The notes beneath the pieces are model-generated. The model was not told the DNA's origin, ran no database searches, and worked only from the letters and a program-made list of their open reading frames with translations. Shown here piece by piece: positions 2,351 through 5,804 of a DNA stretch of 22,391 nucleotides. Positions within the stretch are counted from its first letter, which is position 1; the number at the start of each line of letters is the position of its first letter. The translations under genes and the position numbers were made by a program. The DNA is from a virus, in IMG/VR virus record IMGVR_UViG_3300045136_000441, positions 1 through 22,391 of that record. One strand, written 5' to 3'.

Positions 2351-2649
2351 CCGCCCTCCAGCAGCTCGCCGCGGCGGTCGGGCTCTGCGGCCCGGACGGC
2401 CGGATCGACTGGGACGCGGTCGCGGCCGACGACCCGGCCCGATCGGCCGGAGAGCAGGCCGTGGTCGGCTGGCTGCGGCTCGTCGCCCGCCGCGACCCGC
2501 TGCTCTCGGCGCACACCCCGCGCAATCTCCTCATCGCACAACCCTCACCCCACGAGGAAGGACCGTCCATGAGAACACGGGTCTACGTCGGGCTCTGCAC
2601 CGCCGCGGTCTGTGCTGCGCGCGGCACCCGAGGCGAGGTGGTCGACTGA
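2338..2649 (+). CDS. Small phage protein, unknown function
   Basis: From ATG 2338 the product has 103 residues. Residues 1-65 look like a compact helical domain (ALQQLAAAVGLCG, RIDWDAVAADDPARSAGEQAVVGWLRLVARRDPLLSAHTPRNLL). The rest looks less protein-like. An in-frame ATG at 2569 has a strong GGAAGGA site 6 nt upstream and would give a 26-residue peptide (MRTRVYVGL...). It may be a second start or a separate small gene whose upstream stop was lost. The stop overlaps the next start as TGATG (2647-2651). Function unknown. Confidence 0.5.
   Translation: MAPVTALQQLAAAVGLCGPDGRIDWDAVAADDPARSAGEQAVVGWLRLVARRDPLLSAHTPRNLLIAQPSPHEEGPSMRTRVYVGLCTAAVCAARGTRGEVVD
2569..2649 (+). CDS. Possible separate 26-residue peptide with its own ribosome site
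   Basis: ATG 2569 follows GAGGAAGGA with 6-nt spacing, one of the best ribosome sites in the left part of the window. It lies in frame inside the larger gene from 2338. The peptide is MRTRVYVGL...EVVD and is coupled to the next gene by TGATG. It may be an internal start rather than an independent gene. Confidence 0.25.
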   Translation: MRTRVYVGLCTAAVCAARGTRGEVVD

Positions 2650-3356
2650 TGAGCGCGCTCGACCTCGACAGCATCGTCCTCGACCACGGAACGCACGCGA
2701 CACCCGACGACGGCATGTGCGTCATGGAAGCCGCCGCGCTCTACGCGTCCGAGGACTTCACCGACGCGCCCGAGTGTGTGTCGCCAGTCATCCGCGCGTT
2801 CTGCATCGCGTGGAACGACGCTATCCCCGACGCCGAGACGCGTACGCGTCTGTTGCGGCCATTCATCCCGCAGGTCATCGGCACCAACATCGGCCCGGAG
2901 GACGACGAGCGGCGTACGTGGATGGCCTACGACTGGCTCGTCCGCACGTTCACGCCCGCATGGCTCCGGCGCGCTGGCCTCACCGCGGAGGCCGCCGCGC
3001 TCGAAGCGCTGCCTGAGCTGACCGCGACCGAGCTCGTCGACGCGGCGTTGCCGACGATCCGCGAGGCACGCGAACGCGCTGACGCTGCGTTGGACGCTGC
3101 GGGGGTCGCTGCGTTGGACGCTGCGTTGGACGCTGCGTTGGTCGCTGCGTTGGACGCTGCGTTGGTCGCTGCGTGGGCCGCTGCGGGGGACGCTGCGTGG
3201 GACGCTGCGTTGGACGCTGCGTTGGACGCTGCGTGGGCCGCTGCGTGGGCCGCTGCGGGGGCCGCTGCGGGGGACGCTCTTGCGGACACCGTCGACGAGT
3301 TGCAGCAGTCGGCATGCGAGCTGCTCGACCGCATGTGCGCGGTGGGGAGAAAGTGA
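2649..3356 (+). CDS. Actinophage-type protein with Ala-Ala-x-x tetrapeptide repeats
   Basis: This is a 235-residue protein. The N-terminal domain (about residues 1-135) carries DHGTHATPDDGMCVMEAAAL, CVSPVIRAFCIAWND, IPQVIGTNIG, DERRTWMAYDWLVRTFTPAWL and AGLTAEAAAL. It belongs to a family found in actinobacterial genomes and phages, usually unnamed. Residues 146-209 are sixteen exact tetrapeptides A-A-(L/W/G)-(D/V/A), expected to form an amphipathic alpha-helix. A short C-terminal helix with VDELQQSACELLDRMC follows. ATG 2649 overlaps the previous stop as TGATG, and its TGA (3354-3356) overlaps the next ATG. Role unknown; the repeat suggests a surface helix or a length-variable linker. Confidence 0.75.
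   Translation: MSALDLDSIVLDHGTHATPDDGMCVMEAAALYASEDFTDAPECVSPVIRAFCIAWNDAIPDAETRTRLLRPFIPQVIGTNIGPEDDERRTWMAYDWLVRTFTPAWLRRAGLTAEAAALEALPELTATELVDAALPTIREARERADAALDAAGVAALDAALDAALVAALDAALVAAWAAAGDAAWDAALDAALDAAWAAAWAAAGAAAGDALADTVDELQQSACELLDRMCAVGRK
3084..3275 (+). repeat. Sixteen tandem 12-bp repeats, consensus GCTGCGTTGGAC
   Basis: Sixteen units of exactly 12 bp lie head to tail with no gaps. The first six bases GCTGCG are invariant in all sixteen. Differences are confined to unit positions 7 and 8 (TT, TG or GG) and 11 (A, T or C). The array is in frame, so copy-number changes keep the reading frame. The minus strand is also open through it, which is a by-product of the repeat. Confidence 0.95.
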
Positions 3357-4227: not shown

Positions 4228-4498
4228 GCCGGATGACCGGACGGTGCTCGAGCAGACGGTCGCACGGTTGCGTGCGCTGCTCGCCGATCCGGCGACGCCG
4301 CCGCAGGCGGTCGCGGGACTGGCCCGCGAGTTGCGGTGCACGCTCGCTGAGCTTCGGACGCTCGGCCCGGTAGTCAGGTCGCTGGTCGATGAGCTCGCGG
4401 ACCGTCGTCAGGCGAGGCTCGCAGGAGCCGACGGTGCTGCACGTGCCGGGGGACGGCCGACGCGGGGCGGGCGCCGAGGCGATCGAGCTGGCTCGTGA
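4196..4498 (+). CDS. Putative terminase small subunit
   Basis: The product has 100 residues from ATG 4196. The middle is helical (VLEQTVARLRALLADP, AVAGLARELRCTLAELRTL, VRSLVDELADRRQARL) and may form the small-terminase helical core. The N-terminus (GSSRRAGGRPDD) and C-terminus (RAGGRPTRGGRRGDRAGS) are basic and disordered. No clear helix-turn-helix signature is visible, so the call rests largely on its place between HNH and large terminase. Small terminases recognise the packaging site and regulate the large subunit. The gene overlaps the HNH gene by 32 bp and the large terminase start by 110 bp, an unusually long overlap. Confidence 0.6.
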   Translation: MPGSSRRAGGRPDDRTVLEQTVARLRALLADPATPPQAVAGLARELRCTLAELRTLGPVVRSLVDELADRRQARLAGADGAARAGGRPTRGGRRGDRAGS

Positions 4499-5804
4499 GT
4501 GCGGGATCACGCTCGATCCGTGGCAGGAGCTGGTGGTCGAGGAGCTGCTGCTCGAACGTCCCGGCGGACAGTGGGCCGCGTTGGAGACGTGCGTCGAGGT
4601 GCCGCGCCAGAACGGCAAGAACGTCGTCCAGGAGGCGATCGAGCTTGCCGGCCTGGTGCTGTTCGGTGAGCAGCTCGTCATGCATTCGGCGCACCTGTTC
4701 TCGACGGCGTCGGAGCACTTCACGCGGATGCGGAACCTGTTCGAGCAGGTGCCGTTGCTGGCGGAACGGCTCGACGCCGTGTACACCGCGAACGGGAAGG
4801 AGTCGCTCGTGCTGCGCGGCGGTGCCCGTCTGCGGTTCTTCGCGCGGTCGCGAGGCGGCGGCCGTGGATTCAGCGGCGATCGGCTCGTGTTCGACGAAGC
4901 GTTCTCCCTGGACTCGTCAGCGTTGGCGGCGATGATGCCTGCACTGTCGGCACGGTCGACAGAGGTTCCTGGCCCGCAGGTGATGTTCTTCTCGTCGCCG
5001 GCGATGGCGGACTCGGCCGTGTTGCACAACCTGCGTCAGCGTGCGGCGGACGGCGCGCCACGGGTCGCGTACCTCGGCTGGCTGAACGAGCCTGGCACGG
5101 ACCCAACCGACCGTGACGCCTGGTATCGCGCGAACCCTGGGCTCGGGGTGCGGATCTCCGAGGAATGGGTGGAGACCGAGCTCGCAGCGATGTCCCCCGA
5201 GGACTTCGCGCGGGAGCGGCTCGGGATCCCCGAGGTGCCGGACGAGACCGCAGACGTGTTCGGTCCCGGCCGCTGGGGTGCCTGTCAGGACCCGCAGTCG
5301 ACGATCGACGGCGTCCCGACGTTCGCGGTGGATGTCGCTCCGGACATGACCTGGTCGTCGATCGCGGTCGCCGGCCGACGCACCGACGGTCTCTGGCATG
5401 TCGAGCTCGTCGAACGCCGCCCCGGCACCGGCTGGGTGACCAGCCGGCTCGTGCGGCTCGCCGCGGACCACGCGACCGGGATCTGGCTCGACCCGTCGGG
5501 GCCGGCCGCGGTGCTCGAGCCACGGCTGGTGCAGGCGGGCGTGACGGTCCGGCCGTTGCCGGGCGGCCGGATGGCGCAGGCGTGCGCCGCCTTCCAGGAC
5601 GCTGTCCTGTCCGGGACGCTCCGACACCTCGGGCAGGGGCCGCTTGACGCGGCGGTCGCGGGAGCACGGGTTCGTCGTCACGGCGACTTGTGGCGATGGG
5701 CTCGTGTGTCCACCTCGGTCGACATCTCGCCGCTGGTTGCGGTGACCGTCGCGCTCGCCGCCGCGTCCGAAACTGCCGTGGACATCGTGGAGGCGGTCTG
5801 GTGA
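4389..5804 (+). CDS. terL: Terminase large subunit
   Basis: This is the packaging motor ATPase and nuclease, 471 residues. Residues 29-50 give AEAIELARECGITLDPWQ, the conserved adenine-binding region. Walker A is VPRQNGKN (71-78), and Walker B is RLVFDEAF (165-172) with catalytic Glu170. A MFFSSPA segment at 199-205 is motif III, the coupling motif. The C-terminal RNase H-like nuclease begins at FAVDVAPDMTWSSIAV with acidic Asp315 and Asp319. Length is normal for this actinophage family. ATG 4389 keeps the conserved Pro...VP leader. GTG 4434, with AGGAG 6 nt upstream, is a good alternative giving 456 residues. The stop overlaps the next start as GTGA. Confidence 0.93.
   Translation: MSSRTVVRRGSQEPTVLHVPGDGRRGAGAEAIELARECGITLDPWQELVVEELLLERPGGQWAALETCVEVPRQNGKNVVQEAIELAGLVLFGEQLVMHSAHLFSTASEHFTRMRNLFEQVPLLAERLDAVYTANGKESLVLRGGARLRFFARSRGGGRGFSGDRLVFDEAFSLDSSALAAMMPALSARSTEVPGPQVMFFSSPAMADSAVLHNLRQRAADGAPRVAYLGWLNEPGTDPTDRDAWYRANPGLGVRISEEWVETELAAMSPEDFARERLGIPEVPDETADVFGPGRWGACQDPQSTIDGVPTFAVDVAPDMTWSSIAVAGRRTDGLWHVELVERRPGTGWVTSRLVRLAADHATGIWLDPSGPAAVLEPRLVQAGVTVRPLPGGRMAQACAAFQDAVLSGTLRHLGQGPLDAAVAGARVRRHGDLWRWARVSTSVDISPLVAVTVALAAASETAVDIVEAVW

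Follow-up and report, generated by a model that had tools for sequence, protein, structure and literature searches.

A candidate copy-number-tunable counter-defence gene with a 12-bp coding repeat in an actinobacteriophage-like contig

The window, by which we mean the whole 22,391-nucleotide stretch of DNA that was analysed, is an IMG/VR virus contig (IMGVR_UViG_3300045136_000441) that carries terminase, portal, protease, major head, tape-measure and endolysin genes. By tblastn, its terminase is most similar to those of Arthrobacter, Mycobacterium and Gordonia phages, which suggests an actinobacteriophage-like genome. Outside the tail module and before the terminase lies an open reading frame whose product appears to combine a compact head with Ala-Ala-x-y tetrapeptides, which vary in number and are predicted to be helical, and a short, putatively helical tail. 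The features to which we refer below are as follows.

2649 to 3356, plus strand: the whole open reading frame of 235 amino acids, comprising head, AAxx array and tail (from the list of open reading frames, the frame being backed by head conservation).
2649 to 3080, plus strand: the N-terminal head, head A, 144 amino acids, a distant homologue of the Tweety gp54 head (homology and AlphaFold2).
3084 to 3275, plus strand: an array of 16 units of 12 bp, GCTGCG-NNG-GNC, encoding AA[L/W/G][D/A/V] (unit count and Tandem Repeats Finder).
3276 to 3353, plus strand: the short C-terminal tail, ALADTVDELQQSACELLDRMCAVGRK (family pattern L.PTV..LQ.SA..LL.RMI).
4389 to 5804, plus strand: the terminase large subunit, given for context (phrog_9, E 2.5e-67).

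A preliminary description of this DNA had reported sixteen exact in-frame units with variation limited to positions 7, 8 and 11, and our count agrees on every point: all 16 of 16 units are 12 bp long, adjoin one another and stay in frame, positions 1-6, 9, 10 and 12 show no variation, and the bases at position 7 (T in 12, G in 4), position 8 (T in 8, G in 8) and position 11 (A in 9, C in 4, T in 3) vary. Each of these changes alters the amino acid, as had also been claimed, such that residue 3 is Leu in 8 units, Trp in 4 and Gly in 4, residue 4 is Asp in 9, Ala in 4 and Val in 3, and seven of the nine possible unit types occur. Tandem Repeats Finder placed the array at 3081-3278 with a period of 12, 16.5 copies, 89% matches and a score of 263, compared to a score of 62 for the next-best repeat in the window. 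The 16-unit pattern is more than chance. Half of the alanine codons in the array are GCT, compared to only 4% of those in the structural genes of the window, so that ordinary codon preference does not account for the locked codon.

Searching with the 144-amino-acid head found seven IMG/VR loci directly, and an alignment of 13 heads led to 310 candidate IMG/VR stretches, 268 of which encode a relative; the best 80 of these 268 were kept and, having been picked by head only, are unbiased with respect to the array. In nearly all of these best 80 of 268 relatives the head (conserved residues G14, H16, C24, E27, D39, P41, C43, W55-D57 and D95-W96) is joined to an AAxx array and a conserved tail of the form L.PTV..LQ.SA..LL.RMI, and 59 non-redundant arrays from the head-selected loci have at least eight units. 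Because the 144-codon head is kept in hundreds of phage loci, we regard the reading frame at 2649-3356 as real. The search of genome contigs with the window's head gave no relative, the window protein had no specific hit when its full length was searched against Pfam, NCBIfam and PDB sequences, and the PADLOC defence-system HMMs matched neither it nor Tweety gp54. AlphaFold2 predicted helices in both head and array, with pLDDT mostly above 90 in the head and only about 45-57 in the array; Foldseek gave no match with E below 0.9 in the PDB, and in BFVD it found two weakly described phage-library proteins.

We examined how the relatives write their repeats. Among the head-selected arrays, 45 of 1914 alanine codons departed from the array's own choice, and Ala-Ala was written in at least 12 different ways (GCC GCC in 15 arrays, GCT GCC in 9, GCT GCG in 7, GCA GCC in 6, and others including GCGGCG), with the same pair found in only 12% of array-to-array comparisons. 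Given this diversity, the invariant GCTGCG does not in itself amount to a constraint on the DNA. Were the hexamer kept as a recombination, packaging or recognition motif, with the protein repeat as a by-product, one could understand why 42 IMG/VR stretches contain GCTGCGNNGGNC arrays, attached to several unrelated heads; that the same tetrapeptide is written with so many codon pairs makes such a DNA-level element scarcely credible, and we rejected the motif because the relatives' Ala-Ala codon pairs differ. At residue 3 the relatives mostly use TGG, AGG or CGG, and GGG (W/R/G), and at residue 4 (mostly D/A) they use GAC or GCC, with GAT or GCT taking their place in some arrays. Five arrays (L083, L090, L057, L094 and L108) employ other kits, with Ser at residue 4 together with R/Y/D, or with E/R/W at residue 3, and their third bases are likewise locked.

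Counting alleles present at least twice per array, the extra alleles in 58 arrays comprised 161 non-silent and 1 silent. Neutral drift among tolerated residues predicts that about 55% of alleles would be silent, as against the 1 of 162 observed; the resulting P of 1.6e-54 is too extreme, since arrays were treated as independent though kits are partly inherited, but the direction is not in doubt. Two head families picked by DNA pattern gave 306 non-silent versus 1 silent and 180 versus 2, counts that cover head families 0 and 1 only, and in these 98.7% and 99.3% of alanine codons are the array's own; this set was chosen by codon pattern, whereas the set of 58 arrays was chosen by head and not by pattern. 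A comparison of codons between the relatives L120 and L127 found 9 non-silent and 0 silent differences in the array, compared to 5 non-silent and 10 silent in the head. Locked silent codons beside freely mixed residues make for an unusually clean selection signal inside a tandem repeat, and they suggest that residues 3 and 4 are under strong selection, in keeping with the earlier impression that the variable positions look selected. Arrays were not identical in all relatives, nor were silent changes as frequent as non-silent ones.

One alternative is that the array is a passive spacer, a low-complexity helical linker whose exact sequence is irrelevant and whose variation is neutral drift under loose limits on composition (Ala-rich, about 35% W, about 35% R and balanced D). 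Such a linker would be consistent with the composition of the arrays, which is alike across unrelated heads, with residues 3 and 4, which combine nearly at random, and with unit numbers, which span a wide range among head-A relatives and leave few units in L079 and L125. It fits poorly with the near-absence of silent alleles and with the L120 and L127 comparison, and we therefore consider it unlikely.

Diversity-generating retroelements also leave variable regions in which the third base of each codon is locked and variation is restricted to certain bases. The array shares both traits, and targeted mutagenesis by such an element, or a similar one, might accordingly rewrite positions 7, 8 and 11. 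However, no RVT_1 reverse transcriptase was found in four records, possibly fragments (the window, its 30-kb twin and two relatives), and the arginine codon is locked per array, AGG being the choice of 40 arrays and CGG that of 9, with the two codons found side by side in just two arrays, as strays, which implies that bases were copied rather than randomised. On these two grounds we rejected the array as a retroelement target, an origin that we judge very improbable. Silent variants inside arrays go with a given residue-3 codon (GCG with AGG in L072, GCT before GGG in L061), which is what one would expect if units or blocks were duplicated as wholes. Recombination or slippage, to which the preliminary description had attributed the diversity, holds good for copy number and reshuffling, but it cannot alone confine changes to non-silent positions, and selection on the protein is needed in addition.

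Whole-unit differences between near-identical relatives support a copy number that changes in frame, as had been proposed from the window alone. The coding sequences of L112 and L113 are identical except for 468 bp, or 39 in-frame units, and L088 and L095 are 99.7% identical over 6.2 kb, yet their arrays differ. Likewise, Tweety, DeadP, Taj and KristaRAM possess 49, 39, 31 and 17 units, respectively, behind identical 420-nt heads, and as these are isolated mycobacteriophages with finished genomes, the differences in unit number are not an artefact of metagenome assembly. The window's 16 units compare with 18 in L051 and 18 in L002, where the residues are different and the head protein is 91-92% identical; turnover of the window's own array is seen only against an 89%-identical relative, and its nearest twin, a 30-kb record that is 99.99% identical, has the same array. 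From these comparisons we infer that unit duplication and deletion are the source of array turnover. The gene as a whole can also be lost: in L007, 43 codons are kept and most of the gene is gone by in-frame deletion, and the sequence common to the window and L002 is confined to the region around the array gene, which together indicate that the gene is accessory and mosaic. Downstream of the locus, L007 and L002 each harbor a second, unrelated tandem-repeat gene (L007:6341-7246 with 12 units and L002:2820-3533 with 4 units) made of 24-bp, 8-amino-acid units of the form [GD]S[AV][ST]V[WR]A[SY], whose third bases are similarly locked with few silent exceptions.

The preliminary description had proposed that an exposed helix face is varied, and if this face served host recognition it would indeed be expected to show non-silent variation at two residues per helical repeat, as the array does. 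Nevertheless, the gene sits outside the tail module and before the terminase, a head relative in the Gordonia phage PhinkBoden lies between RecE- and RecT-like genes, and the gene is dispensable, as the deletion in L007 attests; surface or receptor-facing diversity is thus quite improbable, and by analogy with Tweety gp54 a tunable counter-defence role is the likely one.

The link to Tweety gp54 comes from the head. The head-A family aligns with the gp54 head in hhalign with a probability of 95.6 and an E-value of 1.1e-8, compared to probabilities of at most 0.6 for 40 column-shuffled controls and 0.2 for a reversed profile, although the match is remote, with about 24-26% identity over 72-80 columns and only within the first ~85 residues. 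The window weakly matches phrog_13065 (E 0.015), which Tweety gp54 matches at 1e-10. Between the C-terminal tails, BLASTP found no match at E up to 100 and hhalign gave a probability of 0.2; since the tails are not homologous, the window protein would work like gp54 with a shared head rather than be a strict member of its family, and with remote head homology over ~85 residues and unrelated tails, target and mechanism may differ. The gp54 repeat was described as units of 12 bp in which neither Ala-Ala nor the third codon positions vary (Pham et al. 2007, PMC2884959), a pattern that we re-read here from the sequence, and its authors had already inferred selection for variation in 2007. According to two reviews (PMC9262239, PMC8549241), gp54 is a counter-defence protein whose escape mutants, carrying more or fewer repeats, overcome the prophage-encoded defences of Phrann (gp29/gp30) or MichelleMyBell. 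Tweety-type genes in phages Akhila and Inventum (L369 and L376) have degenerate arrays of ATRH, SPAR and ESRA units, which are possibly decaying or frozen.

Taken together, we favor, with moderate confidence and by analogy with gp54, the reading that the frame at 2649-3356 encodes a Tweety-gp54-like accessory protein, a copy-number-tunable counter-defence factor whose array evolves by unit duplication and deletion together with selection on residues 3 and 4. The protein would most likely neutralise host or prophage defence complexes, and the array would probably set how long the connection between head and tail is and what surface chemistry it presents. Duplication and deletion would affect entire 12-bp units or blocks, always in frame, while selection would keep Ala-Ala and favor a mixture of W/R/G/L at residue 3 and of D/A/V at residue 4; retuning to new defences would then most likely occur by array change, as in the gp54 escape mutants. 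How an array comes to switch its silent code in every unit while its residue mix is kept has a simplest putative answer, in which the array would collapse to one or few units, expand again and come under renewed selection. The gene is therefore probably, on the strength of the same analogy, a length-adjustable counter-defence tool of a widespread and mostly unstudied kind. This would tie a so far anonymous gene of a soil phage, together with no fewer than 268 same-head viral loci, to a protein that is among the few in phages reported to be retuned against different defences through repeat number. If true, tuning by repeat length would be a common means of countering defences, far outside the mycobacteriophages too, and past encounters with defences could be read from copy number in sequence data.

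The array itself is more widely distributed than the head. AAxx arrays also occur on other heads, DUF7666 and phrog_18326 among them; clustering with arrays masked gave six clusters of at least three, plus singletons, and a pattern scan of bacterial genomes found the arrays, among the matches listed, in hosts from Streptomyces to Burkholderia and in many MAGs. A more tentative extension, which we think possible but doubtful, is that AAxx arrays are a portable tuning module of many unrelated phage proteins, on at least six head clusters and in phages and bacterial genomes of many phyla. They would act as contingency loci, collapsing and expanding again when defences exert pressure; every such expansion would fix a silent code of its own, and selection would restore the same mixture of W/R/G and D/A.

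Several known systems resemble the gene in part. VR2 of bbp36 in Bordetella phage BMP-1, described in PMC2884959, is likewise a coding repeat that stays in frame and varies in copy number, and its gene is non-essential to the phage, but its unit is 24 bp with spacers. DUF7666 (PF24703) and phrog_18326 proteins possess AAxx arrays with array-specific locked codons on heads for which BLAST clustering shows no relationship to head A; a literature text search on the array peptide itself and on DUF7666 found nothing. The phrog_13065 protein PhinkBoden gp89 belongs to the same head superfamily and bridges Tweety and the window's family, but has 174 amino acids compared to 374 in Tweety and a different setting. 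Head-A-like genes adjoin recombination genes in PhinkBoden (L378:1480-2004, annotated RecE- and RecT-like on either side) and in L089 (6851-8172), near ORFs resembling ERF and YqaJ-type proteins, the latter by eye only. Tweety gp54 (Che8 gp57, PMC gp51; phrog_3416) differs in its phage, in its unrelated C-terminal tail and in its variable residues, which are G/W/Q and S/Y at residues 3 and 4 compared to L/W/G and D/A/V in the window. It nonetheless shares with the window's gene a homologous N-terminal head and 12-bp in-frame units in which Ala-Ala and third codon positions are invariant; its copy number differs between close relatives, as at head-A loci, and it too is dispensable, being absent from Llij.
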